Origin: Siphonodentalium dalli
Taxonomy: Eukaryota > Mollusca > Scaphopoda > Gadilida > Siphonodentaliidae
NCBI GenBank assembly: GCA_032622095.1
Contig: CP136067.1
Span: forward strand, 94,354,707 to 94,418,706
DNA: 64,000 nucleotides
Direction: 5' to 3'
Shown here: piece by piece, positions 19,201 to 59,105 of the stretch
Layout: the number at the start of each line of letters is the position of its first letter
Position numbering within the stretch: the first letter of the stretch is position 1
Notes under the pieces: model-generated
What the model was told of the DNA's origin: nothing
Databases searched by the model: none
Seen by the model: only the letters and a program-made list of their open reading frames with translations
Made by a program: the position numbers and the translations under genes

Positions 19201-21438
19201 TTGTTCTATCTCAAACTTATATTTTCCGAATGTTCACTTCATCGATTGTTCGTGTCAGTAACGAGTCCCCCCCCCCCCCCACTGAGACCTCTTACAGAGA
19301 TCTAGTGTGGATCACTCTATCTACAATAAACTACATTTGCATAGTGCTTATAATACATAATTCATTTGGATTTATCACTGTGTTACAGAAACCATAATAA
19401 TAGAGTACCATACAGAATGCGAGCTTGAATAATATGATGAATTCGGAGTTCGTGTCAACAAATATTTTATACATATATGTGCCCAAAAAGTTTCTTTTTA
19501 TCTTTTAGTTTAGTTGTCCATGGTAGCATGACTAAATTCACCCCAAAATCACAGAGGACTTCAAGTCTGAGTTTAGTGTGCCTGTCATATTCAGAATTAG
19601 GACCCCAGAGGGTGAAACTTTAGTGACGCTATCCCGCATAGTGAGCTAGCATAACTAATTTCACCCTCTGGGGACCTCATTCTGCTTAGGCCTCATCTTC
19701 TCTGGAAAGTTTCTTTATTGTCAATTTTCTATAGAAACTTCTTCACATAGATTCTATTTCTTTTTTAGTTAAGTTTCTCTATATCCCCAAATTGGCAGAT
19801 GCCACATTGCATAATCGAGGTTCCCAATGGGTGTACATCACAATATTCACCATTTGGGAACCTCAATCTGAGTCTATGTTTCCCATAGCAGATGAGGCCA
19901 TGCAGAATGAGGTTCCCAGAGGGTGAATTTGGTGATGCTAGCCCACTATGCGGGATATCGTCACTAAATTCACCTTCTGGGGACCTCATTCTGCAAATGT
20001 CTGGCAACATATTTTCAGACCTTGTTGAAGTTAAAGGGTTGTTTTTTGTTTTTTTTTAATTGTCATCAATGGTTATCCCTGATGTGCCCAAATTAACCCA
20101 TTATGGGACCGGAACTGGTGCAGCATTAAAAACCATGTGCAAGTGCATTCTCTAAAATATGTAAGTCTCCCATAGGCTTACAAGGTCACGGTAAATTATT
20201 GTTAGGCCAATGTATTCTCTTATATATGTGAGACTCATTTAATCATATTTTATGTCATAGATTATTAATAAAACTGTATATCAAGGCACTATAAACAAAA
20301 TAATCAGTGATTCGAAAATTAAATGGGCCTTTAACTCTTTCTACCCATGACATAGACCACATGCTATCAGTGCAACAAGCAGGTGAATATACATGACGTT
20401 CCAAATGGTGATGAAATTCATCAGATGAATTATAGTATTTTAATCATATTTTATGTCATAGATTATTATTAAAACTGTATATCAAGGCACTATAAACAAA
20501 ATAATCAGTGATTCGAAAATTAAATGGGCCTTAAACTCTTTCTTTACTAAATACTCATTCATGTAGATCCCTTTGGAAATGTTCAGATAATAAGTTCATT
20601 ATGATATGTTCAATAAGAACTTATTATCTAAACATTGCCAATAAATATGAATTCTTCTGCACTTGTATTATCATTTCATCTGGCTGTCATATATCCATAC
20701 TGTATACACCCGTCAGTAAGCCCGGGGGCTCGTGCACGTTTTTGCTCAAAAAGTGGGTACTGGGCTTACTCACGAGGACTCCCCTGTGCAAAAATTATGT
20801 TAGCCTTTTTTTTTTTTTTTTTAAGTAAGTAAGTAATGCTTTATTCTCAGCCATTATAATACATGGTACATGTATACAGTAATATTTTTCCAATTGAATA
20901 ATAGACCATTCCAGTGTATATGTTTATTACTGAGTGGGATATATATATTTAGTATAGATAGGAATAATGATTGTGTCTCATTTTAGCATCCAGGAACATC
21001 ATGTATCCTATTTTATTTAACCCTTCCATGACTGTAGCTTCCTGAAATTTTGTGAAAACCCTGTGCCAAGTATTCTCTTATATATTTGAGTCTCCCATAG
21101 GGAGCCTCGCATTTATAATATAATACATTGGTCTAACAATATTTACCTTGACCTTGTAAGCCAGTGCATTCTCTTATATATGCGAAGCTCCCTATGCACT
21201 GCACTGGCACATGATCTTTAATGCTGTCCCAGCGCATGAAAAGGTTAATATAAAAAATATATTTTTTCAGGAATACTGCACAAAGAAAGAGGGAAGAGAT
21301 GATGCGCTCAAAAAGTATGGAAACCAAAAGAAATCTAATTTCAAGAAATTATGCAAGAAAAACTATAAAGGGCAGCCAATCATGAAATTTCAGATGGAAT
21401 ATCTCCTGGAAAAAATTCAGAAACAAGTGAATGACTGA
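7130..21438 (+). CDS. CCDC59: CCDC59/TAP26-like rRNA-processing protein, 4 exons, 201 aa
   Basis: Exons 7130-7214, 11537-11807, 12977-13058 and 21271-21438 join in phases 1, 2 and 0 at GT-AG sites and give 606 nt, 201 codons plus stop. The product is very basic. Residues 29-34 (GQGFAD) followed by KRKNKAK and LLRKEKKK, and the C-terminal block GQP...QMEYLLEKIQ (180-196), match the two conserved blocks of human CCDC59 (TTF-1-associated protein 26, Pfam rRNA_processing, related to yeast Fyv7). The family is nucleolar and acts in small-subunit rRNA processing; mammalian CCDC59 also binds TTF-1/NKX2-1. The protein is shorter than human (241 aa). Lys/Gln/Glu pentapeptide repeats (residues 73-109) fill the middle. 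The start was chosen because it is the first in-frame ATG before the conserved FIGSKTEGQGF junction. Introns are packed with transposons. Assignment by recognition, not by search. Confidence 0.92.
7353..8222. mobile_element. 870-bp foldback in CCDC59 intron 1
   Basis: Left arm 7353-7690 and right arm 7865-8222 are inverted copies (CGTAAGTGGAGGAATCGG against CCGATTCCTCCACTTACG; ACCTACGATTTTGACGTG against CACGTCAAAATCGTAGGT), with a loop of about 170 bp. CpG-containing ACGATT words are frequent. It starts about 140 bp past exon 1. Confidence 0.85.
8821..8920. repeat. 21-bp tandem repeat (CTTAAGCGTAATTCATTTATG)
   Basis: Four to five units with the palindrome CTTAAG in each. The flanks 8223-8820 and 8926-10390 (intron 1) show no gene; 9660-9900 has several TTGACCGCGTT-like words. 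Confidence 0.85.
10400..11325. repeat. Segment bounded by two ATTAATCGACTAACC words
   Basis: AATTAATCGACTAACC occurs near 10415 and again near 11255 in the same orientation; the right edge ends CGTGGCAACCCTAA, reminiscent of hAT element ends. Between them is a repeated CTTTGCTTTTGATGTC block and a G run. No transposase recognised. Confidence 0.35.
11537..11807 (+). CDS. CCDC59: CCDC59 exon 2, with in-frame KQKEY repeat
   Basis: The acceptor is AAATTTCAG|GA and the donor AGAAAGG|GTAAGG (phase 2). The exon encodes GQGFADKRK and LLRKEKKKEVYEQK, then about seven tandem five-residue units of KQKE plus Y, T, M or a variant. A 15-bp DNA repeat (CAGAAAGAATATAAA type) underlies them, so the coding length is probably variable between alleles. 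Confidence 0.92.
12155..12584. mobile_element. Family D MITE (AGGCCCACTTAATTTTCGAA), complete
   Basis: TIRs AGGCCTATTTAATTTTCGA and inverted TTCGAAAATTAAGTGGGCCT, flanked by TTAA on both sides (12151-12154, 12585-12588). It lies in CCDC59 intron 2. Related pieces are at 20240-20335, 20436-20538, 50971-51130 and 61325-61421. Confidence 0.85.
12661..12920. repeat. Two tandem copies of a ~160-bp unit
   Basis: GATGGTTGTTTTGAT.ATAAA.GTGCAGATG and GAGGG.ATATTGAGTC.TCATAA occur twice, just upstream of CCDC59 exon 3. Confidence 0.75.
12977..13058 (+). CDS. CCDC59: CCDC59 exon 3
   Basis: The acceptor TTTGCATTCCAG and donor TATGAG|GTGAGT bound 82 nt that encode SGKGLNKFSKVKKEFETKKE and LREKYE, a charged helical segment. 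Phase 2 in and phase 0 out fit both neighbours. Confidence 0.9.
13106..13554. mobile_element. Family A composite foldback, complete
   Basis: Outer TIRs AAGCCTGCAAATAGTGTGTC and its inverse at 13526-13554. Each end has its own hairpin (GCAGAATGAGGT...ACCTCATTCTGC) and the spacer holds TGGTGTTCACCCATTGGTC. Flanks TGTTCCAACC/TGTTCTGAGC could be an old 9-bp target duplication. It begins 48 bp after CCDC59 exon 3. Confidence 0.85.
14053..17490. mobile_element. 3.4-kb nested palindromic element flanked by TTAA
   Basis: Outer TIRs contain CATATTATG and TTCGGGTGCGTGAAACT, inverted at 17450-17490; TTAA lies at 14049-14052 and 17491-17494. Inside, 14105-14430 is inverted at 14930-15243 (CAAACTGGAGGAATGTAG...), and 15245-15420 is inverted at 17270-17435. 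The centre 15430-17150 shows no coding sequence. A partial copy lies at 55336-55693. Confidence 0.8.
17505..17720. repeat. Repeat block shared with 1.2 kb and 2.3 kb
   Basis: Here ATAATTCGCGG is followed almost at once by GTTGAACTGAGGAAA, showing the uninterrupted form of the repeat seen at 735-2395. Confidence 0.7.
17873..18352. mobile_element. Family C MITE (AGGTACTCAATCCGAT), 480 bp, TTAA-flanked
   Basis: TIRs AGGTACTCAATCCGATCAGA and inverted ...ATCGGATTGAGTACCT, with TTAA at both sides (17869-17872, 18353-18356). Internal GTCGAGGAACCCATCAAA and its inverse make a larger foldback. Same length and nearly the same sequence as 53674-54153. Confidence 0.9.
18641..18855. mobile_element. Family B MITE (CAGTAATG...), TA-flanked near-perfect palindrome
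   Basis: TIR CAGTAATGTCCTAAGTAATC pairs with GATTATTTAGGGCAATACTG; the arms meet at CTCTCAGTGTGAGAG. TA dinucleotides flank both ends, as for Tc1/mariner MITEs. Confidence 0.88.
19562..20024. mobile_element. Family A composite foldback
   Basis: Same order as the 13.1-kb copy: hairpin, spacer with CCTCAATCTGAGTC and TTTCCCATAGCAGATGAGGCC, second hairpin, terminal CTGCAAATGTCTGGCAACA. Confidence 0.8.
20097..20640. repeat. Cluster of broken J, D and K MITE pieces
   Basis: 20097-20235 resembles the CCCTTTCATG family (TGCATTCTCT, GTCTCCCATAG). 20240-20335 and 20436-20538 are two copies of a family D end (AATCAGTGATTCGAAAATTAAATGGGCC). 20540-20640 resembles the CTTTCTTTACTAAATACTC family with an ATAATAAGTTC hairpin. 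Confidence 0.65.
21021..21244. mobile_element. Family J MITE (CCCTTTCATGACTGGAGC), TTAA-flanked, next to CCDC59 exon 4
   Basis: TTAA at 21017-21020 and 21245-21248. Termini CCCTTCCATGACTGTAGCTT and inverted GCGCATGAAAAGG. Inside, TTCTCTTATATATTTGAG-type words face each other. Confidence 0.75.
21271..21438 (+). CDS. CCDC59: CCDC59 exon 4 (C-terminal, most conserved)
   Basis: The acceptor ATATTTTTTCAG precedes 55 codons and TGA. It carries the family C-terminal signature KGQP...FQMEYLLEKIQ. A TTAA-flanked MITE ends only 22 bp before the acceptor AG. No AATAAA lies close behind the stop; a run containing AATAAA occurs near 21767 but I cannot tell whether it is used. Confidence 0.93.
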   Translation, partial: EYCTKKEGRDDALKKYGNQKKSNFKKLCKKNYKGQPIMKFQMEYLLEKIQKQVND

Positions 21439-36544: not shown

Positions 36545-37990
36545 CTGTTGACATTGACATGTATATGGGAACATGTCATTCTGGGGTTATTCGGCAAAAA
36601 CATGACCACCAGCGGCCATCTTGGATTTTAATCTTTCCATGACCAAATCCTTTGGCCCGTGCTACAGGTCATACCTTTGGTTGGATCATTATGAAATTTG
36701 TCATGGCTTTTGACATGTAGATGGGAACGAATCTTTTTGGGGTCATTCGGCAAAAAACATGGCCGACAGCGGCAATCTTTTATTTCAAAATTCAATCCAT
36801 TAGCACGGGCTACAGTCCGTACTGCTCGCCTGATCATTATTAAATTTGTCATGTATGTTAACATTGACATGTTGATGGAGACGAGTCATTTTGGGGTCAT
36901 TCGGCCATAAAACATGGTAGTCGGCAGCCATCTTGGAAATTACTCTTTGCATGACTAAATCCTTCCTTTGGCATACGGGCTATAGGTAGTACCTTTAGAT
37001 GGATCAATATGAAATTTGTCATGGCTTTTGACATTGACATGTAGATGGGAACGAGTTTTTTTTTTTTTGGGTCATTCGGCAAAAAAACATGGCCGACAGC
37101 GGCCATCTTTTATTTCAAAATTCAATCCATTAGCACGGGCTATATGCCGTACTTTTCACCTGATCATTATGAAATTTTCAATGGATGTTAACATTGACAT
37201 GTAGATGGGAACGAGTAATTTTGGGGTCATTCGACCATAAAACATGTCCGCCGGCAGCCATCTTGGAATTTACTCTTTGCATGACTAAATCCGTTGGCAC
37301 GGGATATAGGTCGTACCTTTGGATGGTTCATTATGAAATTTGTCATGACTGTTAACATTGACATGTAGATGGGAACGAGTGATTTTGAGGGTCAATCGGC
37401 AAAAAAAAAACAGCAGCCATCTTGGATTTCAAAATTCAATCCATTAGCACGGGCTACATGCATTTTTGTGGTCTGATCATCATAAAATGTGTCGTAGACA
37501 TTATCATTGACATGACTGTAGATGGGAACGAGTCGTTTTGGGGTCATTCGTCCATAAAACATGGCCACCGGCAGCCATCTTGGATTTTTGTATGACTAAA
37601 TCCTTCGGCACGCCCTACAGGCCACCTCCCTCATCCGCTCATCACCAATCTTGATATGGATCTTCGGTGTGACCTCTAGATGGCAGCCATATTTGATTTT
37701 ACTCTTTTGCATGACTAAATCCTTTGGCACACGTACCTACAGACCACATTCCTCGTCCGATCGTCACCAAACTTCATATCGATCTTTTGGGTGACCAACA
37801 GATGGGAGCCATCAATTATTTATTTTGAATTTCATTGGAAAACATGGCCGCCAGCGGTCATCTTGGATTCCACCGTATGGCTAAATCGTTTGGCACTCCC
37901 TATACAGACGACATCCCTTGTCCGATCGTCACTAAACTCCATATGGATGACCACTAGATGGGAGCCATCAATTGTGTTCATGTTGACATA
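36545..37990. repeat. ~160-bp tandem array with two alternating unit types
   Basis: TTGACATGTAGATGGGAACGAG and GGGGTCATTCGGC.A.AAAACATGG recur about seven times at 150-167-bp spacing. Units with CCGACAGCGGC alternate with units carrying CCGGCAGCCATCTTGG, so the higher-order period is about 320 bp. The last part (37620-37990) is degenerate. A stray inverted piece is at 47440-47515. Confidence 0.85.
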
Positions 37991-40172: not shown

Positions 40173-40983
40173 ATGCACACTAACTGACTCTGTTATCAGT
40201 TTCATTCATTCATATTTCAGTTTGTTAGCCATTTGAACCTCGCATATATCCACAATGGTATAAATATATTCACGGGACGTACGCGATAACTATGTTACTA
40301 CCCATCCATTGATGCTGATGATAACGGAACAAAAAACAACGCAAGCAATCAGTATTGAGCTGTTATCAGTTGTAAAACATCACCGGGTATGTAAAGAAAC
40401 AATTACTTCCTATACAGGATGACCTCATACATTAACAAAATATTCAGAAGATATATATAACGATGTATTCCTCTGGTGTTGGCCCTCCCCCACACCACTG
40501 CCTCCGGTATCAGTTTCATACATTCATATTAACATAGTTCAGTTTCTTAACCATATTCATATTCTAACTATGAATAGATTGGAGACATCCCACTATTTTG
40601 GGATTCCCTTTGTAAGAATAGATATTTCTTACCTGTTATATAGTGTATATAAGCTAGGTTTATCGCTAATATGATCATTTCATAAAGAAGATTTATTCCG
40701 ACTTGATCAAGATCTTTTTAAATTTTCTATAAGCATAAGACAGTTAAAAATGAACCATCTTACCATAGTGAATCTTCTAGCAAGTAAGTTACTTGTCTGT
40801 AGTTACTCTGCCGTAACATAATTATGTCTCCCAAAATGTCAGACCTTTTGGATGAATTGTTTATTAATGACATTTGGTGCACCCCCCCCCCCCAAACCAT
40901 CTTTGGTTGGAATTATCCAACTGGTATCTAAAACTTGTGCAACTGTTAGATACTTCAAAGTAGGAAAATATTCTATTTTTGTC

Positions 40984-42131
40984 AAAAAAAACATTCATTT
41001 AGTGATATCACATATTCGATTTTTATGATATCACATTTTGTGATATCACTTATTCGAATTTGTGATATCATATATTTATTTTGTGATATCAATAATTCGG
41101 GGGGGACGTATTTATTGATATAACTAAATGCATTTAGTGATATCATAAAAATAATTACTGATATCATAATATGAATTTATGATATCACAAAATCGAATTA
41201 TTGATATCAATAAATGCTTCCTATTTTGTGATATCATATATTCGATTTTATTATATCTTAAATTCATTTTATGATATAATTAATTCGAATTAGTGATATC
41301 ATATATTTATTTAGTGATATCGATCAATACTAGCTATTTTATGATATCAGGTATTAGATTTTATTATATCACTAATTCACGGGGTGCCGTTCTTCAATTT
41401 ATCACCTATTTAGTAATATCAATAATTCATTTTATGACATTACTAAATGAATATGTTATATCACAAAATCGAATATATGATATCATTAAATATTTTTATT
41501 ATATCACAAAATGATTTTAAGATATCACTTATTCCAGTTTGTGATATCATAAATCCATTTTTTTAATATCATAACTTCGAATTATTGATATCACAAAATA
41601 GTAAGCATTTAGTAATATCAATAATTCGATTTTGTGATATAATAAAATGTTGAGGAATTATTGATATTACAAAAATAAATTCAAGATATCACAAAATGGA
41701 ATTAGTGATATCATAAATTAATTTGTGATGTCACAAATTCGAATATATGATATCACAGAATAAGTATAAGCAGTTAGTGATATCAATCATTCGATTTTAT
41801 GATGCCATAAAATGATTTAATGATATCACCAAATGTTGAAGGAATAGTAGTCTAGCTATGCGATTTTCTATTTATTGACATTACATAATTAATTAGTGAT
41901 ATCACAAATTAAATTTTATGATATTACATAGTTCAATTTTGTGATATAATTTTTTTTATTTATGATATCACAAATTGGAATTTTTGATATCTTTAAAATC
42001 ATTTTGTGATATCATAAAATATTAATGATATCATATATTTGATTTTGTGATATCATATATTCATTTAGTGATATAATTAATGAATTATTGATATCACAAA
42101 ATAGGTAATAAATATAAGAACGGCGCCCCAT
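40984..42131. repeat. GATATC array, ~22-bp spacing, with foldback ends
   Basis: TGATATCA or close variants recur every 15-23 bp about 50 times, with linkers such as AATTCGAATT and AAATGCATTT that are themselves palindromic. GGGGTGCCGTTCTT (41380) is inverted at 42118-42131 (AAGAACGGCGCCCC), suggesting a 750-bp foldback core inside the array. Confidence 0.85.
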
Positions 42132-42525: not shown

Positions 42526-42547
42526 ATGGCAGAGCATACAGAACAAG
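42526..42547 (+). CDS. Cytokine-like gene exon 1 (coding part, MAEHTEQ)
   Basis: The ATG is in good context (A at -3, G at +4) and is followed by seven codons and the donor CAAG|GTAATT in phase 1. It joins exon 2 as g|tt, Val8. The peptide is not a signal sequence; an alternative first exon carrying one is possible and was not found. Confidence 0.7.
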
Positions 42548-45500
42548 GTAATTTTCACACTTGATTTGAATACATGTACGTAGGTTGGGAAAATAATTTG
42601 GGGCTTATTTATATCCTCTATAGAAATGACAGCACACTTGCCCGCACTACCCCTCTAGATTTACGACATTCATATGCATTCTCTCTTATTCCCCCATAAC
42701 GAGTTATGGGCGGTATAGAGGAATCAGATTAATTGTCCGTCCGTCCGTAGACGCAAATTTATCCGAGCTTTTATTCCTACATTTTTAAATAATTTTTTTT
42801 TAAACCTGAAACATGTATTTAGTGCCATGTGAACAAGTGCACCTGCGATTATGGGGTCTGTCCGACTTTTGTGTGTGGAGTTATCCCCCTTTTTCGACTT
42901 AAAATTGTTCACAACACTCCAATCAGTATGTCAGTCCATTTATGTGTTCGTCCGACTTACCTTTCCAGAGCATAACTTGAGTGAGTAAAACATTTTCCAC
43001 ATTGGCTACCATGAGGGTATTCTTAGTCGCATTGGAACAACCCACCTCAAGTTTAGGCTGTTTATATCCATTAGCGTGCAGTTTCGTTTATTTTTCTTTC
43101 AGTTGCGACTTTGCTGCCAGAAGGAACACATTGCTTTCGTCTGCCATACACAACAAATTCAACAACAGTAAAAACAACAATAACAACACCAACAAAAACA
43201 ACAGTGACTCTTCAACCTTCCATCGCAGACAACGAGAAGCTTAACACGCACGGTGAAGATGGAAACCCACACGTTGCTTCTGAAAAGCTTGCCCGTGATA
43301 TCACTTTCAAATATTTACCAAGAAAGTTCATCAAAACATTTACGGCAACCATGGCTGGCGGTTATCATAGTAACGAAACCACATCTACTACCAACGTACC
43401 TCGTTCCTCATTTCGGATTTCAACAGTTGGTTTCCAGGGTGTGACACCAGCGCCACCGCCAAGGGCAGAATCCATGGAAACATCCGAACCAAACGACAAT
43501 GGTCTGCCCCAGCAACATTCGTTGAGGTCCGGGTTGACATTGAACATTCTTAATAGTCTGACAACCCTGTGTAGAGAAATCGTTAATGTGGCTATTAACA
43601 AATATAAGGTAAGAAAAAAATACAAATAAATATATTCAGTTCATCTTAACCTAACGATATTGTGTTTCTTCCGGAACACAATTGCATCAATAACATATTG
43701 TTTTATCAAGCCCGATTAAGTATGGAGAATGGTACATATCATTTGATATGGTAAAGACCATTTTATTTTAGAGTTATTCATCTTCATCCGCAATTTGGTC
43801 CGAGACCCATTCTCGTCGACTTTTCACAAGTATCGGTGGTGAAAAATAATAGATTTCAAAAATCGATATCTGATCACTCTGAGCTTTGATGGGTGGGTTC
43901 CTCGACTCGAATTAAATATTTTTACCCCCCCCCCCCCTCCGAAGCCATAGAAATAGTTAATTCGGATTATTCATATGTAACCGTTCGGTAGTATTTTATC
44001 TTATCAATGTACTTACACAGTGTAGCCTTATCAGTGTACTTACACAGTGTATCCTTCTCAGTGTACTTACAAAGTGTAGCCTTATCAGTGTACTTACACA
44101 GTGTATCCGCATCAGTGTACTTACAGTTTAGCCTGATCAGTGTACTTACACAGTGTAGCCTGATCAGTGTATTTGTATAGTGTAGCCTGATCAGTGTACT
44201 TACACAGTGTAGCCTGATCAGTGTATTTGTATAGTGTAGCCTGATCAGTGTACTTACACAGTGTAGCCTGATCAGTGTATTTGTATAGTGTAGCCTGACC
44301 AGTGTACTTACACAGTGTACTTACACAGTGTAGCCTTACCAGTGTACTTACACAGTGTAGCATTATCAGTGTAGCCTTATCAGTGTACTTGTACAGTGTA
44401 GCATTCCCAGTGTACTTACACAGTGTAGCTTTATCAGTGTATTTACATAGTGTAGCCTTATCAGTGTACTTACACAGTGTAGCCTTATCATTGTACTTAC
44501 AGTGTAGCCTTTTCAGTGTACGTACACAGTGTTGCTTATTTTATGGTTTATCAGTGTACTTACACAGTGTATCCTGATCAGCGTACTTAACGGTGTAGCA
44601 TTATTAGTGTACTTACACAGTGTAGCCTTATCAGTGTACTTACAGTGTAGCACTGTGTAGCCTTATCAGTGTACTTACACAGTGTAGCCTTATCATTGTA
44701 CTTACACATTGTAGCCTTACCAGTGTATTTACACAATGTGGCCTTAGCAGTGTACTTACACAGTGTATCCTTTATATCAGTGTACTTACAAAGTGTAGCC
44801 TAATCAGTGTACTTACATAGTGTAGCTTTATCACTGTACTTACACAGTGTAGCATTATCAGTGTACTTACACAGTGCAGCCTTATCAGTGTACTTACACA
44901 GTGTAGCCTTATCAGTGTACTTACACAGTGTAGCTTATTTTACGGTATCATTTCAGTCGTATTCCGGACTTGATGAATATTTCATTGAGATGACATCACA
45001 GAAGTTAAACACATCTCTACCAAACCTGTATGCACAAAAAGGAGCGCGGGATACAACCAGGGAACCAAATATGGTATGTTGTTTGCATTAAAGTTGTTTA
45101 AAAATCAAAGCAATTATGCATCTCACCCACGCCACCATGCAGTCTCCGTGTATCGAAAACAACGTTAATATAAATTATTCCTAGTTTCTGTTTTAGTTAA
45201 TGTAAAGAAGTTGCATACAGTCAGCTGCAATACCACAATCCTTCACAGTTTGTTACGTCAGTGGTTGGAAGTTATTATCAAAATCAATCTTGAGGTACTC
45301 AATCAGTGTTCGCGCTGTTGGTAGCCAAATTAGCCAATGGCTAATCTTTTTCGAATTTGGCTAATAAAAATTTCATTTGGCTAAACTTTTTTTAACCCAA
45401 ATGGAGACTGAAAGCATGGGGCCAGAAAGCTAATTAATAAAAGCGCTCAATAGATCGACATTCAAGACGAAGTATAGGTGACGAAATTTTTTCTTTATTT

Positions 45501-48479
45501 TCGTATAAAGGGAAACCCGATCGACAACTCTATCAACCAAGCGATCACAAAGTGATATGCAATCATCTTTAGTTTTCACAAGACGGACATTCAAAGACGC
45601 ATGGACATAAAACCGATGAATTATGACAATGTGAAGAAAGCAATGTTTTGTAAAGTGCATTGACGCCGGTATATAAGCAATTTGTTCGTAACAGGCTGTT
45701 TTAATCTGGAGAAAGATTACGTCACTCTGCACTAAGCATTATTAATTTTTACATTTAATCCCCTAATCCCCCAGTCAGCCCATTGTCTGTCTGGTCACTC
45801 ATGCCGCTCCTGCACAATGCATGTTTATGATGACATTGTATTTATGACGGTCGAGGTTTATGAGCATCAAGTGTAAGACAACAGCTTAATCAGCCAAATG
45901 TGAATCACGACATATATATTTTGTGGCTATTTGTCGTCAAGACCGATACAGTCAAAATAATATGCATGCTTTTATGACAGATTGTAATTTGATAATGGCG
46001 TAACAATATTAAGAGTAACTCAATCCGATCAACAACAATATTTCCTCAAAATACGCTTTTATAGTTATCAAAATCGATTAATTACAACCAAATGATGCAA
46101 ACCGCTGTCAACTATGATAAAATAATCCCGAAAACGTGTTATTTATCAACATGTTGTTCAACGAAATATGGCCGTAAGATCACTTGATTATCACGAAATT
46201 TTTCCGTATTACCACTTGATATTAGAGTTATCCATCTTCGTCCGCATTTTTCCCGAGACGGTCACCGTGACGATTTTTTTCCAGGCCACAAATAAGTACA
46301 TATCTCGAGAAATAACAAATTAAAAAAATCGATATCTGATCACTCTGAGTTTGGTGGGTTCCTCGACTCGAATAAAATATTGTTTTACCCCCGAAGTCAA
46401 AGAAATAGTAATTTGGGATCATTAATTCGGATTATGCATCTTTAACGCGTATTGTTAGTGTAATAGATTGTCTAACAAATAAGCTCCAAATCATTTGTTC
46501 CGTTTGATATATATATATGCCAGTTGTTGAATATAATACCACATGTACTGCTGAACTTCTAGACAGAGAAACGCCCTGTCGTTTCCCATGTAGGCATCTT
46601 AAGATAAATAACCAGTCCAAATTTACGGGGAAAACATTCTTAACCAATCTTGAAATAAGCCATGCACCCCCTTGCATGTTACCATATAAAATAAAATACA
46701 TGTTACCATATTTGATTCCAGGATGTCTTGCGGAAATTAGCAGAATTTGTGAAGTCGCATCATTTATATTTGGTGAACATTTTGGAAATGTATCAGAGCG
46801 ACTGTCGACCAAGTGGCAGACGAGATAAATTCGGAGATTTTTGGTGCTCTTGTAACCAGGTTGCCGGAATTCTAGAGGCGATGGGAAGACAACTCCACGA
46901 TCAAATACAAAAACTGGTAAGTGTCACCAGATCTAGAGACAATACAAAAATATCCTTGAATCTTATAGACTACCCCTCAATATAATCTATTCCGTGCACA
47001 TGAATTACAGTTACTGCACCATTTATATGTCATAATAATATAGATATCGGGCATTATAACGCTATATATGAGACTCATAATATTGTGACTAATCGAAATA
47101 ATTGTAAAGGAGGCATATACATGTATACATGCATATATGATGAATCAAAACCAATATACGCCTTTCTACATTGCCCGTACATTTTGGTCCCGACAGCTTG
47201 TGTGAAAACTTCTTATGACAAATATGTCGTTTTTATTTTCTCCTTATTTGACCGGGGGGGGGGGGAATTCCGGCACGTATGCCGGGGTGGGTGGGTGGTC
47301 AAAGCCACCAACAAGCAATTTTTTTCGCAACTAGTGTTTTGGCAATGAGTTGGGCTTCAAAACCACTTTGAATGAGAGAAATAATGTAATTCATAGGTAA
47401 ACTGTTATCGTGTTGTATTTTGTTGCAAATTTTGAAATCCAAGATGGCCGCTGGCAGCCATGTTTTTTTGGCCGAATGACCTCAAAATTACTCATTCCTA
47501 TTTACATGTCCATGATAAATAGTATGCACAGAAATTCATATACAGCTGTTTACAGTGATTTCCCCCCGCAAATCTCTGTTTTAGTGTTAAAAAGGGGGTG
47601 GGTGTCAAAAAATGGTTGGAAAAAACTGCCGAAAACGGAAAAAAAATTGGCGGTGGGGGTGGGTGGGTACAACAAATGATCGAAAGGGAAAAAATGCCAT
47701 ACGTGCCTGAAATTGTTTTCCGACCCCCCCCCCCCCCCCGATTTGACTTTCAAAAAGGCTTTGGTCATCTTGCAAGGGCACTTCTCTGACTTGATTTCTG
47801 TCATTCTGGTGTGCTAGGTTTTGGCGCCCACACACCCTGGACTAGTGTTACCTGGTAGACAACAACTTACCAATTTTGGTTACCCATATATACACAGCAC
47901 GACACGACGTGTAAATGGGTTTGTCGATACGGCACGAGTGCTGTCGCGGAAGGATAGAACGAGAGGCGCTTGCGCCTCGAGTTCTATCATTCCGCGACAG
48001 CACGAGTGCCGTATCGACAAACCCATTTACACATCGTGTCGTTCTGTGTTTATTACACGCTTCGCATCCTAGAATCCGTGCATTAAAATACAGGATTAGA
48101 AGGTTTATTTAGGCTCATACAGGGCGTGTTAGTCATGTGTGATGATTCTTTTATTTAAATAGTTACATGCAGTTTCATGGTTGAGGCGAACGTCATGTAC
48201 GTCATTGTACGTCAACGAGAAGTGTATGGAACGTTCGTTCCATACGGATTTGTAAATATGGAACAGCAATAACACTGTACTTCTAGGAACAAGCGTGTAA
48301 TAAAAACAATATTCTATCCACAGAACGCACATCATGCAGGAGAGATTCCGTTCTCGCGAGAAACAGCCTTGATTCACAGCCACCAAGAATTCGGGCAGTA
48401 CGCCGTCACAGAACTGAAGGCTCTCGAGAAACAGTTACCGCTAATAGAACACACCCTGCACGCGATGGTCGAAGAATGA
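42526..48479 (+). CDS. Candidate long-chain four-helix cytokine (IL-6/G-CSF-like gene plan), 5 exons, 331 aa
   Basis: Exons 42526-42547, 43103-43608, 44957-45073, 46722-46916 and 48324-48479 join at good GT-AG sites in phases 1-0-0-0 for 996 nt. Residues 1-150 look disordered, Thr-rich at 25-45, with no signal peptide visible. Residues 150-331 are helical: about 152-185 (helix A, ending in exon 3), 216-240 (B, LRKLAEFVKSHHLYLVNIL), 254-281 (C), 296-329 (D), with Cys at 164, 243, 257 and 259. Phases 1-0-0-0, a tiny first exon, and A / AB loop / B+C / D on exons 2-5 are the plan of vertebrate IL-6, G-CSF, EPO and growth hormone genes. Similarity such as LP..YAQKGA before helix B is weak. The gene model is well supported; the cytokine assignment is inference. 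Alternative: an unrelated helical protein. Confidence 0.8.
43103..43608 (+). CDS. Cytokine-like gene exon 2 (disordered N-terminus plus helix A)
   Basis: The acceptor TTTTTCTTTCAG and donor AAATATAAG|GTAAGA bound 506 nt. The exon encodes a Thr/Ser/Asn-rich stretch (NSTTVKTTITTPTKTT), a Pro-rich patch (TPAPPPR), and ends with an amphipathic helix LNILNSLTTLCREIVNVAIN that I assign to helix A. The long disordered stretch is unusual for this family. Confidence 0.85.
43760..43972. mobile_element. Family C fragment in cytokine-like gene intron 2
   Basis: GAGTTATTCATCTTCATCCG, GGGTGGGTTCCTCGACTCGA and GAAGCCATAGAAATAGT are family C words; the ends are lost. Confidence 0.7.
44001..44944. repeat. 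27-bp VNTR (CAGTGTACTTACACAGTGTAGCCTTAT)
   Basis: About 33 units, some shortened or carrying ATTTGTATAG variants. It fills most of intron 2 of the cytokine-like gene and ends about 12 bp before exon 3. Apparent ORFs here are repeat artefacts. Confidence 0.95.
44957..45073 (+). CDS. Cytokine-like gene exon 3 (AB-loop equivalent)
   Basis: 39 codons, phase 0 on both sides, acceptor TATCATTTCAG and donor AATATG|GTATGT. The sequence SYSGLDEYFIEM then LNTSLPNLYAQKGA resembles the loop exon of IL-6/G-CSF in size and position. A 27-bp VNTR ends about 12 bp before the exon. Confidence 0.82.
46013..46441. mobile_element. Family C MITE in cytokine-like gene intron 3
   Basis: TTAA|GAGTAACTCAATCCGATC... 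to ...ATTCGGATTATGCATC|TTTAA; central GGTTCCTCGACTCGAATAAA. Diverged. Confidence 0.7.
46722..46916 (+). CDS. Cytokine-like gene exon 4 (helices B and C)
   Basis: 65 codons, phase 0 on both sides, acceptor TTTGATTCCAG and donor AAACTG|GTAAGT. Two predicted helices are separated by a short loop CRPSGRRDKFGD, then FWCSCNQVAGILEAMGRQLH. The loop and GDF before helix C recall CNTF/IL-6 family layout, by eye only. Confidence 0.88.
47260..47800. repeat. Poly-G/C foldback-like pieces in intron 4
   Basis: AAAGGGGGTGGGTGTCAAAAAA and GGCGGTGGGGGTGGGTGGGT resemble 60990-61100 and 59745-59805 (GGGGGTGGGTGTCAAAAAAT; CGCGGTGGGTGGGTGG). G and C runs of 10-17 occur. Confidence 0.6.
47892..48048. repeat. 157-bp near-perfect hairpin in intron 4
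   Basis: Arms of about 70 bp: CACGACACGACGTGTAAATG / CATTTACACATCGTGTCGTT, then GTCGATACGGCACGAGTGCT / AGCACGAGTGCCGTATCGAC. The tip is GAGGCGCTTGCGCCTC. CpG-rich. Probably a MITE; transcribed it would fold as a long hairpin. Confidence 0.9.
48324..48479 (+). CDS. Cytokine-like gene exon 5 (helix D)
   Basis: Acceptor TTCTATCCACAG, then 51 codons and TGA. Hydrophobic positions F303, V308, L311, L314, L318, I321, L325 and M328 make a long amphipathic C-terminal helix, the receptor-binding helix in class I cytokines. Pro319 inside it is atypical. The FxxK motif of LIF/CNTF is not present (FGQY instead). Confidence 0.87.
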   Translation, partial: NAHHAGEIPFSRETALIHSHQEFGQYAVTELKALEKQLPLIEHTLHAMVEE

Positions 48480-51152: not shown

Positions 51153-52490
51153 ATTCGTATGGAGGGTTATTAGGGTCACAAACCTAACTTCACATTTTAA
51201 TTCTAACTTAACATTTTAATTCTTATATTTTAATTCTAACTTAACAATTTAATTCTAACTTAACATTTTAATTATTATATTTTAATTCTATTTTACATTC
51301 TATTTACATTCTATTTACATTCTATTTACATTCTAGAAACATTATAGAAATATTCTAGAAACATTCTATTAGCTCTAACTTAATCTTTTAATTCTTACAT
51401 AATATTTTAATTCTAACTTAACATTTTAATTCTTATATTTTAATTCTAACTTGATATTTTAATTATAACTTCATATTTTAATTCTTACTTAATATTTTAA
51501 TTCTTATATTTTAATGGTAACTCTAACTTTATATTTCAATTCTTACTTAATAGTTTTATTTTAATATTTTAAATCTACTACAAAAAGGTCTAATGTTGGA
51601 ATTAAAATATAAAATATCAAGTTAGAATTAAAATGTAAAGTTAGAATTAAAATGTAAGAATTAAAATGTTAAGTTAGAATTAAAATATTAAGTAAGAATT
51701 AAAAGATTAAGTTAGAGTTAATAGAATGTTTCTAGAATGTTTCTAAATGTAAATAGAATGTTTCTAGAATGTAAATAGAATGTAAATAGAATTAAAATAT
51801 ATGAATTAAACTATTAAGTAAGAATTAAATTGTTAAAGGGGTACTGTACGCCACATGTTGTTGTTGGTTTCTATAGTCTCCGAGTCGGAGAATAAGGTAA
51901 CAATTTTTCCATTATTTGAAAGTCTGTTGAGTACGAAGTCATGTTACGGATGACAAATTTACCGGAATGCAAAAATACAAATTGTCGTTGTCGAGTAATT
52001 TTTGTAAAGTTTTCAACCAAATGAATCAAATAAAAGTTATATTATATGCATACTAGTCCCATATAATCATTTAAGTTATTGTATCGTCGCTAGTCAGTGA
52101 GTGGCTTGAGTGTTCTCCCCGTATCATCATAATATTTTAAGCAATCGTGTGTGCGATCGGTTTAAAAATCCAGTATCCCTCAATTACTATTTTTGATTAC
52201 GGTAATTCGTAATTTAATTGACGCCATTTTATGGCTCCAGTCATAAATTCAATTTATATCAAATTATTAACTTTTAAATTATTAAATTTTAAGATAGCCT
52301 ATTAACCTGAGCGTTTACAGAATACATCTTCGACTCAAATTACTTATGTTTCTATATATTATCGATATTAGATCGTTGTTGTCACCGGAAATTTAATGAA
52401 AATGGCGTACAGTACCCCTTTAAGTTAGAATTAAAATGTGAAGTTAGGATTGTGACCCTAATAACCCTCCATACATTCGGAGGGTCGGGA
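51153..52490. mobile_element. Large TTTTAATTCTAACTTA foldback, interrupted
   Basis: CATTCGTATGGAGGGTTATTAGGGTCAC at the left is inverted at 52450-52480. The arms are low-complexity ATTTTAATTCTAACTTAACA units with TACATTCTATT / TTTCTAGAATG. The right arm is split by a 583-bp element at 51837-52419. Confidence 0.88.
51837..52419 (+). mobile_element. Family E MITE (AGGGGTACTGTACGCCA), 583 bp, TTAA-flanked
   Basis: TIRs AGGGGTACTGTACGCCA / TGGCGTACAGTACCCCT with TTAA at 51833-51836 and 52420-52423 (sharing the junction). Non-coding. About four substitutions were noticed against the copy at 58523-59105. Confidence 0.93.
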
Positions 52491-52629
52491 TGCATAACAA
52501 ATGCCAGACACGACACCAGTTGGACATTTCAATCTAACAGTTTGATTATACAACCAGAATTATTTAGTGTGAAATTTGTCGTTTTTAGAACGCAATTCGC
52601 ATATTTTCTCAGCTTATGTCAATTTTTTG

Positions 52630-53190
52630 GACTGATATATGGACTTTCAGTTGGAAATTTCCAACCTATGGAGGTGTCAGGTTGGAAAATTCCATCACAA
52701 CGAGGGGGTGATGGAATTGCAACCTCCCGGATTTGGATATTAGGTCTGGTTCAGGGCGGGGTGCAGTTGGAAATTCGTAAGTTTACACCACCATCCCACA
52801 ACGGAAACCCTCTATCCACGTCCCTGGTTTCTTACCCTACCCGTGTGCTTGGTTCATATTGGCATCACTATTAGTGTTATCATGCATGCATTGGGCGTAA
52901 TCAAGGGCGTAGCTAGAGGGTCTCAGTTGGGGGTGGAGGTTGCACCTTGGATTTTCCAACTGCAACCCCGCCATAGAAACAGTTCAATCATTTTGGCACC
53001 CGCTCCCTTGGGTTGGAACTAACCAACTGGCACCTAGAACCTTTCAACTGTTGGAAATCTGCACCCCGACACCCTCCTTCCATTTGATGGCCATTTCGGA
53101 CCAAAAGTGGGAAAATAATGTGCAAATTATATTAAGCTAGCCACATTTGGTCAAAAACAACAAATTCCCCACCAAACACCCGCCCCCCCC
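52630..53190. repeat. Family Q fragments
   Basis: CAGTTGGAAATTTCCAACCT, TCCACGTCCCTGG (right end) and AGGGCGTAGCTAGAGGG (left end) with a C run at 53164-53175. Confidence 0.65.
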
Positions 53191-54385: not shown

Positions 54386-54900
54386 TTATCTCAATTTTCT
54401 GAAGGCTAATTTTAGAAATATACTCACCTTCTTCAGGAGCGATATATTAGCTATAGATATCAAACCATAAAACTTTTCTCGCGTTGGAGATAGCCAATAG
54501 TATTTTGGAATGTACTGTTCACGGATATCTCTAAATTCGTCGCATATCAGTAGGAGATGATACTCGTCCCCTATCCCGTTACCGCACTGTTCACATGTAT
54601 TACAAGGTATACTGTTTCGCCACCGCCCTTTTTCAACAGGGAGTCGGTGGTTTGCTGTTGTAAATTTCACCATATAAGGGATCAGATGATCTGGCAACTG
54701 AAGCAAATACCGGCTAATACAGGGGCTGGTTTTAATATTTCTGTAAAAAGTTGCTCTTGATGAATCAGATAATTCTAAATCGATAAAAAGTTTAGCCCAA
54801 TGCTGCTCTTGGGAAAGGTCTTAAATGGTGAATGTCCTGTTTAGATAAAGCGGACTGTGACTCCCATGTAGAACATAGATCAAGTTCATTCAGGGTGTTT
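54386..54900 (-). mobile_element. 3' fragment of a non-LTR retrotransposon (LINE) ORF2
   Basis: Read on the minus strand, an open frame from about 54810 to 54386 encodes the C-terminal tail of a reverse-transcriptase polyprotein. It has a zinc-binding C-x2-C...H-x4-C pattern in CEQCGNGIGDEYHLLLICDE, followed by a region with RDIREQYIPKYY, typical of the part downstream of the RT domain in animal LINEs. A frameshift near 54805 separates it from further matching sequence (LNELDLCSTW, HHLRPFPRAAL) up to about 54900. RT and endonuclease domains are absent, so it is a dead 5'-truncated copy. It abuts the 36-bp satellite. Confidence 0.8.
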
Positions 54901-56739: not shown

Positions 56740-58520
56740 GAGTTATCTCTATTAGCGATTTGGAGATATCTCCAAAAAGAATTAGAGATAAATATCTCTA
56801 CATCGACATATTCACAATTCAAATTTAAAATGAACATCTCTGTAAATAATCTACTGCAGATTGTAATTTTGTTGATAAATAACAAGTTTTGGACCGTTTT
56901 ACGACCTTGTTGATTGTGGTTAGCATTATTTTTGGGCAATTAATCGATTCTGATAACTGAAAGGTATGGGCAGCCGTTTGGTCGGAAAATACGTCAAATA
57001 AAAATTAATAGTGGATTGTTTAACTAATTGCATGCATCAAGCATTCAATATACAGTGTAGTGATATTCCATATTAATAGCAATCTTTTCGAAATCAGTAA
57101 TATTATTTCCCAACCAACGGTGTTCATTTCCAAACCAAAAGTCTTAAAGACACGGTTGGCCTTGGCGGTGGGTATCCTGTGAAAATATCTCCACCCGTCA
57201 AAAACCGCCACAAACAGAAAGAACATCAAAATGTAGATAAACTTTGTCCGTATACAAATAAGAAATATCGCATAAACAGTATGTTATGGTCATATCTTTG
57301 ACCATTGTTATGTAAACAAAAGCGTAAAAAGTTACTTTTCTGGTGTTTGTTTATATTATGATGGTAAACACAAAGAGCGTTCTTTGTTGGTGAATACCTG
57401 ATATGGAACTAATAAAGAGCGTTTATGCCATTTGTGTGTGATTAGCCAGTAGCATTGTGTTGTCTTCTGTAACACAATCAGGCTCCTGCTTAGGTAAAAT
57501 ATTGTAGGTCTTTATGATAACATGCTGTTTACGCGATGGTCATGGTATATATGAACGGAACTGTATGCGTCTTGCTGTTTTTCTGTTTACGGTGTTTGGA
57601 ACAAATATGAATATTTTCGACAATTAAGGCCGCACGTGCCTTTAAATTCAATATGAGACAATTTCATTCTAATATATATCGTTTTCTAATCAATGTTGAT
57701 AGATGCACAATTGATGTTCTATTTCAATTCAAATAGTTCTCCAACCAATATATAAAACTAATTCTAATACAGCAATTATAAGTCAATTTTCTTTCAATGG
57801 CATTTCTATCAATAAACAACAATACGAAACTAACAGCAGTCCATGAAAATCTAACAGTCAAATCCCGAACTGATATGAGTCGATTAATAACCAATAGACA
57901 AAACCAAACAGACGCAAGATGGTGCTGCGTTGAACTTCCTGCGGTTGTGGGAACCACAAATTATATATAGATTATGTGGAGGACTTCGGTTCACGTGACG
58001 TCAGGAATATAGAAATAGACTAAATAGATCTGTGGTTCCCACTACGAGTATATCTTACGTCACATGAATCAAGTATCTCCAACGTCCCTGGTTGCCCCCT
58101 AGCGTTAATTCGAGAATTGGTTATTGGTTTGTAAGCGGTAGTTATTAAAATGTCAACTGCGATCATTGAATATTACCGGAAATAGATAATTGATTTTGAA
58201 GTTAGATACTGATTGGAATGCGCAACATATTGAATTGAAATGTGAATTTGATATCTATTAAATATAAGAATGACGAGGTCTATCGATTTGGAAATGAACA
58301 TCGTTGATTGGGGAATTCTATATTGATTAGGAAAATGTCTATTGGTTTGAAAATGAACATCGTTGATTGGGGAAATCTATATTGATTAGGAAAATATGGC
58401 TATTGAAACGGAATATACATATATTGAATATGCGATAGCTGTACTAATTGTTTGTTACTAGATATTGGTTGAAGAATGAATAACATTAATTTGAAATAGA
58501 ACATTAATTTTGCATCGGTT
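56740..58520. other. No gene seen
   Basis: AT-rich, without convincing splice-bounded frames. Contains TTGGAGATATCTCCAA words (56758-56775) and ATTGATTAGGAAAAT.T.TATTG subrepeats at 58310-58400. Confidence 0.5.
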
Positions 58521-58522
58521 AA

Positions 58523-59105
58523 AGGGGTACTGTACGCCATTTTCATTAAATTTCCGGTGACAACAACGATCTAATATCGATAATATATAGAAACATAAGT
58601 AATTTGAGTCGAAGATGTATTCTGTAAACGCTCAGGTTAATAGGCTATCTTAAAATTTAATAATTTAAAAGTTAATAATTTGATATAAATTGAATTTATG
58701 ACTGGAGCCATAAAATGGCGTCAATTAAATTACGAATTACCGTAATCAAAAATAGTAATTGAGGGATACTGGATTTTTAAACCGATCGCACACACGATTG
58801 CTTATAATATTATGATGATACGGGGAGAACCCTCAAGCCACTCACTGACTAGCGACGATACAATAACTTAAATGATTATATGGGACTAGTATGCATATAA
58901 TATAACTTTTATTTGATTCATTTGGTTGAAAACTTTACAAAAATTACTCGACAACGACAATTTGTATTTTTGCATTCCGGTAAATTTGTCATCTGTAACA
59001 TGACTTCGTACTCAACAGACTTTCAAATAATGGAAAAATTGTTACCTTATTCTCCTACTCGGAGACTATAGAAACCAACAACAACATGTGGCGTACAGTA
59101 CCCCT
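58523..59105 (-). mobile_element. Family E MITE, second copy, inverted
   Basis: Same 583-bp length and TIRs as 51837-52419, opposite orientation, TTAA at 58519-58522 and 59106-59109. Confidence 0.93.

Follow-up and report, generated by a model that had tools for sequence, protein, structure and literature searches.

Analysis of a 64,000-nucleotide stretch of Siphonodentalium dalli DNA (contig CP136067.1; G000:C7:94354707-94418706 within a 2.23-Gb assembly of nine contigs, eight of them measuring 190–301 Mb), referred to below as the window, reveals a probable five-exon gene whose coding exons are arranged like those of vertebrate long-chain class I helical cytokine genes. The gene is likely to be real, and a genome search found no second copy of it. 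We see an even chance that its product is a secreted signalling protein built as a helical bundle of the long-chain class I cytokine type. Whether the C-terminal part folds as a cytokine-like helical bundle is also about even in our judgement, and we put at about one in three the chance that common descent makes it a member of the long-chain class I superfamily. Kinship with the vertebrate cytokines is plausible, the likeness being one of gene plan and helices only. An earlier note on this DNA had proposed a cytokine of the IL-6/G-CSF type; of that reading, a helical protein that is probably secreted and whose exons follow the long-chain class I plan is supported, and IL-6/G-CSF membership finds no support in the sequence.

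Exon structure and coding evidence

Exons 2–5 have GT-AG borders throughout, are separated by phase 0 introns (introns 2–4), and form a single open frame ending in TGA, with the borders and phases that the earlier note had drawn (Table 1). The donors of exons 2–4 lie in the top 0.14–0.95% of all GT sites of the window. Codon usage was scored with a small model built from 13 training items of the same genome (6 of 17 loci were left out: L033, L034 and L044, which have stops, the near-duplicates L042 and L049, and the short L035), and scores were ranked against stop-free non-coding windows. Three overlapping 195-nt pieces of exon 2 fall in the top 0.2%, 4.3% and 5.2%, exon 3 in the top 7.6% and exon 5 in the top 1.2%; held-out training items lie above 79% to 100% of the stop-free windows. 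Read in frame, the joined exons reach 0.054 bits per codon, modestly more than the 0.008 and 0.019 of the two shifted frames. A genome search for a paralogue found none: past the gene's own four matches there were five more, the best with an E value of 0.6 and three stops.

Proposed first exon and promoter

The five-exon model in the earlier note holds for exons 2–5 but not for exon 1, as the MAEHTEQ exon joined to exon 2 has no signal peptide and a 34-nt exon 1.8 kb upstream is a better choice. With both joined to the acceptor at 43103, the hydrophobicity (Kyte-Doolittle over 11 residues) is 0.55 for the earlier exon and 2.53 for the exon at 40750. The latter emerged when the 23 kb upstream were searched for short first exons ending in phase 1, which gave eight joined candidates over the two acceptors tested, and it has the best donor of the eight, GCAA being followed directly by GTAAGT. 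The first intron remains in phase 1 and uses the same acceptor. Only the corrected model has a hydrophobic N-terminus, MNHLTIVNLLAIATLLPEGTHC, which on its hydrophobicity score agrees with the secretion expected of a long-chain class I cytokine; as judged from the sequence, the protein is probably secreted. The corrected signal-peptide exon strengthens the cytokine reading and fits the class I exon plan better than the earlier exon 1.

The new exon is preceded by a TATA box, TATATAAG, and no other candidate on either strand of the window combines a hydrophobicity of at least 2 with a TATA box 40–150 nt upstream. Such candidates arise at 0.0016 per kb in 30 Markov sequences, which is support rather than proof because the criteria were chosen after the exon had been seen. 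A Rel/kappa-B-like 9-mer, GGGATTCCC, is the one match to GGGAWTCCC in the window; with 0.36 matches expected and at least one in 29 of 100 shuffles, only its position is noteworthy. An alternative acceptor at 43082, which would give MAEHTEQ a hydrophobic start, was passed over: its pyrimidine tract is weaker (0.60 versus 0.85), and most of the hydrophobic run comes from translating the pyrimidine tract that belongs to the 43103 acceptor.

Exon plan compared with vertebrate cytokine genes

The coding exons measure 34/506/117/195/156 nt with phases 1-0-0-0. Those of the human genes measure 19/191/114/147/168 (IL-6), 10/161/120/165/198 (GH1) and 13/146/87/180/156 (EPO); these lengths sum to the respective coding lengths and all yield 1-0-0-0. 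There are several points of agreement. First, a phase 1 intron splits the signal peptide here, as these lengths place it in human IL-6, GH1 and EPO as well. Second, in the IL-6, GH and EPO genes exon 3 encodes the A-B connection, exon 4 helices B and C, and exon 5 helix D, and the present gene has the same five exons and phases with introns at the predicted helix borders. Third, exons 3–5 are of similar size, exon 2 being larger here because of a Thr/Ser/Pro-rich arm. The likeness to the exon plan and sizes of human EPO, GH and IL-6 that had been suggested earlier thus holds against these lengths. Conservation of exon structure in the face of low sequence similarity is reportedly the subject of Betts et al. 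(2001), a paper cited in PMC9465101.

Predicted helices

The corrected protein has 335 residues (1008 nt of coding sequence in total), three N-glycosylation sequons, and cysteines only at positions 22, 168, 247, 261 and 263. AlphaFold2 was run on exon 4 and exon 5 separately, in single-sequence mode with no alignment. Exon 4 alone gives two helices (mean predicted local distance difference test score, pLDDT, 71; predicted template modelling score, pTM, 0.41) and exon 5 alone one long helix (mean pLDDT 86, pTM 0.53). The predicted helices stay inside the exon borders, with B and C filling exon 4 and D most of exon 5. Exon 2 closes with an amphipathic stretch that is the candidate for helix A; as it ranks 56 among 710 stop-free segments, its amphipathic score alone proves little. 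With helix A so placed, some 39 residues separate A from B, 7 separate B from C and about 11 separate C from D; class I cytokines have long A-B and short B-C connections. Of the arrangement A / AB loop / B+C / D proposed in the earlier note, helices B, C and D are therefore recovered in models of the isolated exons, and helix A remains a matter of amphipathic score.

We suggest that the gene would be transcribed from the TATA promoter, possibly by a Rel/NF-kappa-B factor, and that the signal peptide would be cleaved around residue 22. The Thr/Ser-rich N-terminal arm would probably be glycosylated, and the C-terminal bundle of about 180 residues would comprise helix A, a long A-B connection, B, a short turn, C and D. 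Such a bundle could bind and pair a class I receptor of the gp130/Domeless type, and the paired receptor would in turn activate JAK and STAT.

Features discussed in the text are collected in Table 1.

Table 1. Features of the candidate gene and one IL6Ra-bind match elsewhere in the genome, in window coordinates unless a contig is given.
Feature	Position	Strand	Remarks
Rel/kappa-B-like 9-mer	40600..40608		37 nt upstream of TATA box
TATA box	40646..40653	+	Start 104 nt upstream of ATG; pattern occurs 60 times on window + strand
Coding exon 1 (corrected)	40750..40783	+	34 nt; MNHLTIVNLLA and first base of codon 12; ends in phase 1, then GTAAGT
Exon 1 of the earlier note (MAEHTEQ)	42526..42547	+	Unlikely to be an exon, unless an alternative one; lacks a hydrophobic core with the 43103 acceptor
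Exon 2	43103..43608	+	506 nt; remainder of signal peptide, Thr/Ser/Pro-rich N-terminal region of ~120 residues, candidate helix A at end
Exon 3	44957..45073	+	117 nt, 39 aa; putative long A-B connection
Exon 4	46722..46916	+	195 nt, 65 aa; predicted helices B (exon residues 2-28) and C (36-64), 7-residue turn
Exon 5	48324..48479	+	156 nt, 51 aa and TGA; C-D connection, predicted helix D (residues 12-50)
Possible polyadenylation signal ATTAAA	48730..48735	+	Pattern only
IL6Ra-bind match over cut-off (L017, L022)	G000:C2:172234162-172234374		Three stops inside

Two introns of the gene contain tandem repeats. The corrected intron 1 has GATATC-rich repeats at 40996-42102 with periods of 21–23, 43, 63 and 113 bp, and intron 2 has about 35 copies of the 27-bp unit CTTATCAGTGTACTTACACAGTGTAGC at 44000-44938, an array that ends 18 nt upstream of exon 3.

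Sequence and structure comparisons

A number of results weigh against a cytokine assignment, and most come from sequence comparison. No Pfam family reaches E≤10 with the protein, with the domain or with any of exons 2–5 taken singly, and phmmer against the PDB gave two matches (best E 0.22), neither a cytokine. A profile search against long-chain cytokines, as the earlier note had advised, was made with hhalign and a profile of eight human IL-6-type cytokines; the query scores 14.8, within the range of 60 shuffles (median 11.5, maximum 16.9), and 20 of 200 further shuffles score at least as high. The test cannot decide the matter because true members such as IL-6 also fail: when each member was left out in turn, CNTF, CLCF1, CTF1 and OSM were recovered (40–57), LIF, G-CSF and IL-11 weakly so (26), and IL-6 was missed (16.0, P 0.1). 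Cytokines that are not members of the profile all fail (EPO, 17.4; GH, 11.4, P 0.48; leptin, 13.1, P 0.24). In favour of the cytokine reading, the best profile alignment is near-diagonal, with query 72–128 (inside exon 4) on columns 76–126; none of the 200 shuffles is alike by a criterion set afterwards, although at least one of the 60 other shuffles gave a near-diagonal alignment too (76–121 on 81–124, score 14.8).

Pairwise comparison with 11 cytokines in two modes gives p values of 0.007–0.97 that are not significant after correction (the best are leptin, 0.007, and EPO, 0.017), and exon-by-exon Z scores are mixed, the best (4.5) coming from a mismatched pair, query exon 4 on EPO exon 5. 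A likeness of exon 3 to IL-6 seen by eye is not significant when scored. The local likeness to IL-6 and CNTF that had been proposed is thus not significant in pairwise, profile or exon scoring, and IL-6/G-CSF family membership likewise finds no sequence support: there is no Pfam IL6 match and no PDB match, and the helix B cysteine signature of the IL-6/G-CSF/MGF family is absent. Nor does exon 5, IPFSRETALIHSHQEF, contain the FxxK motif that marks the start of helix D in the CNTF/LIF group.

Other adverse points concern structure and the gene model. Foldseek with the exon 4 hairpin returned 152 matches, none at E≤0.001 and with no cytokine among the best 50 of the 152, a null that is hardly decisive because the query consists of two helices only. 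In the model made from exon 5 by itself the C-D connection has no more than some 11 residues, which is short for a crossover, unless helix D begins later in the folded protein. Exon 4 is without codon signal (rank 43%, above only 57% of the stop-free windows). A rival first exon at 20797-20824 exceeds the 40750 exon in hydrophobicity (2.87 versus 2.53); it was rejected, as its donor is weaker (4.0), it has no TATA box, and it lies 22 kb away.

STAT and receptor candidates in the genome

The genome contains at least two STAT loci, a point for the cytokine reading; vertebrates have six or more STATs, so the number suits an invertebrate without proving one. Those at G000:C7:358681 and G000:C5:248239415 are on different chromosomes and share an identical 46-residue peptide, reflecting either recent duplication or strong conservation. 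As a further adverse point, no class I receptor was found in exon-by-exon searches of the 2.2 Gb, which have low power, and the gp130-like receptor that the earlier note had advised looking for in the same genome has no convincing candidate in searches with EpoR_lig-bind, IL6Ra-bind or a gp130 fragment. EpoR_lig-bind has no match over the cut-off in the genome; the open frame around its C3 match (E 3.3) reads by eye as a GLIS/Zic-type zinc-finger protein. IL6Ra-bind has four matches, one of which, on C2, exceeds the cut-off by 0.4 bits and contains internal stops (Table 1), and is either a chance match or a decayed receptor fragment. The 60 kb around it contain no WSxWS, and only the loose matches FSPWT, FSRWS and FSHWG. 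The other three were rejected, being below the cut-off, with stops inside, and non-coding or repeat-like by eye. A fragment of human gp130 has 17 matches (best E 0.1), none with a WSXWS-like motif, and most appear by eye to be ordinary fn3 domains; a near-identical pair among them (L039 and L042) has QSDWS.

Alternative explanations

The most serious alternative is an unrelated secreted helical protein, such as a lineage-specific effector or a bundle of up-down-up-down topology, that has the class I exon plan by coincidence, and although it falls short of an even chance we regard it as a real contender. The lack of any significant match in Pfam, the PDB or hhalign is consistent with it, as is the short C-D connection. 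Phase 0 introns are common, so that 1-0-0-0 alone is by our estimate an event of a few per cent, and amphipathic 24-mers are frequent in non-coding frames, with the exon helices ranking 14, 52 and 56 of 710. Coincidence would nonetheless have to account for an A-B connection that is long and a B-C one that is short, for introns at helix borders and for the phase 1 intron in the signal peptide, all of which agree with the cytokine plan.

That the protein is instead a helical cytokine of class II (interferon/IL-10-like) or of the short-chain kind (IL-2/IL-4-like) seems improbable, as the modelled helices of 27, 29 and 39 residues are of long-chain size and the first intron is in phase 1, whereas in those genes it is in phase 0. 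Such a protein would also be secreted and helical, as this one probably is, and PMC9756803 describes an oyster interferon-like protein with class II-like structure. It is slightly less probable still that there is no functional gene as modelled, the open frames being those of a decayed copy or lined up by chance. The absent codon signal of exon 4 and the modest signal overall would suit this, but a working gene is favoured by four in-frame junctions with good donors, 335 codons free of stops, a codon signal in three exons (2, 3 and 5), a confident single-sequence helix in exon 5, and a signal-peptide exon downstream of a TATA box.

Comparison with known ligands

The fullest form of the cytokine reading, a non-chordate long-chain class I helical cytokine that retains the vertebrate exon plan, is put forward tentatively. 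Its likeness to IL-6, GH1 and EPO lies in five coding exons, 1-0-0-0 phasing and exons 3–5 of similar size, and to the vertebrate long-chain class I cytokines generally (IL-6, G-CSF, CNTF/CLCF1/LIF, GH, EPO) in the predicted long helices B, C and D and short B-C turn. It differs from them in having no significant sequence similarity, in a short C-D connection, and in an additional arm, rich in Thr/Ser/Pro and about 120 residues long, that precedes helix A.

The earlier note had named insect Unpaired-type ligands as the exception to a poor record of class I cytokines outside vertebrates, a picture that is incomplete: amphioxus has a published GH-like class I cytokine and further related genes (PMC9010856), resembling the present protein as a class I helical cytokine outside vertebrates and differing in being from a chordate. 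The Drosophila Unpaired proteins are secreted ligands of the gp130-like receptor Domeless, and Upd2 has been modelled on leptin; Upd2 homologues are reported only from Drosophila species, and a motif BLAST of 54 invertebrate genomes gave no leptin-system homologues (PMC5385356). In shrimp the Domeless ligands described are not cytokines but a C-type lectin and peroxiredoxin 4, which share a ligand role in invertebrate JAK/STAT signalling and belong by name to other protein families (PMC5645147, PMC9195186). No protostome class I cytokine besides Unpaired is among the literature matches listed, most subscription papers and all bioRxiv preprints lying outside the search. As for receptors, sea squirt and insects carry gp130-like forms (PMC1963337), and the origin of the IL-12 receptor is dated before the mollusc era (PMC12162339). 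According to a survey from 2026, molluscs have class I receptors, JAK and STAT, but IL-6-type ligands occur only in vertebrates (PMC13203501); its search used BLAST with E≤1e-5 and identity of at least 30%, thresholds at which a gene such as this one would not be expected to be detected.

If the reading is true, the gene would supply the ligand that the gp130-like receptor/JAK/STAT module of invertebrates has so far lacked, and ligand and gene plan would be older than vertebrates, hidden from BLAST by divergence of sequence. If the predicted fold is right, exon plan and structure together would provide a route to ligands of this kind across many genomes, and it would become possible to test how helical cytokines originated.

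Other repeats in the window

A tandem array with a 330-bp unit lies at 36546-37588, and as its translated motif WGHS..KHGHW recurs at one of the weak IL6Ra-bind matches, on C5 (L018), the unit is probably dispersed. An open frame at 54386-54820 (minus strand) resembles the end of a long interspersed nuclear element (LINE) reverse transcriptase, with a zf-RVT match (E 0.16) below the cut-off. The open-frame peptide AFTEYIFDSNYLCFYILSILDRCCHRKFNENGVQYPF occurs both at 52311-52874 (plus strand) and at 58458-58631 (minus strand), and this pair, about 6 kb apart and in opposite orientation, is perhaps a mobile element.

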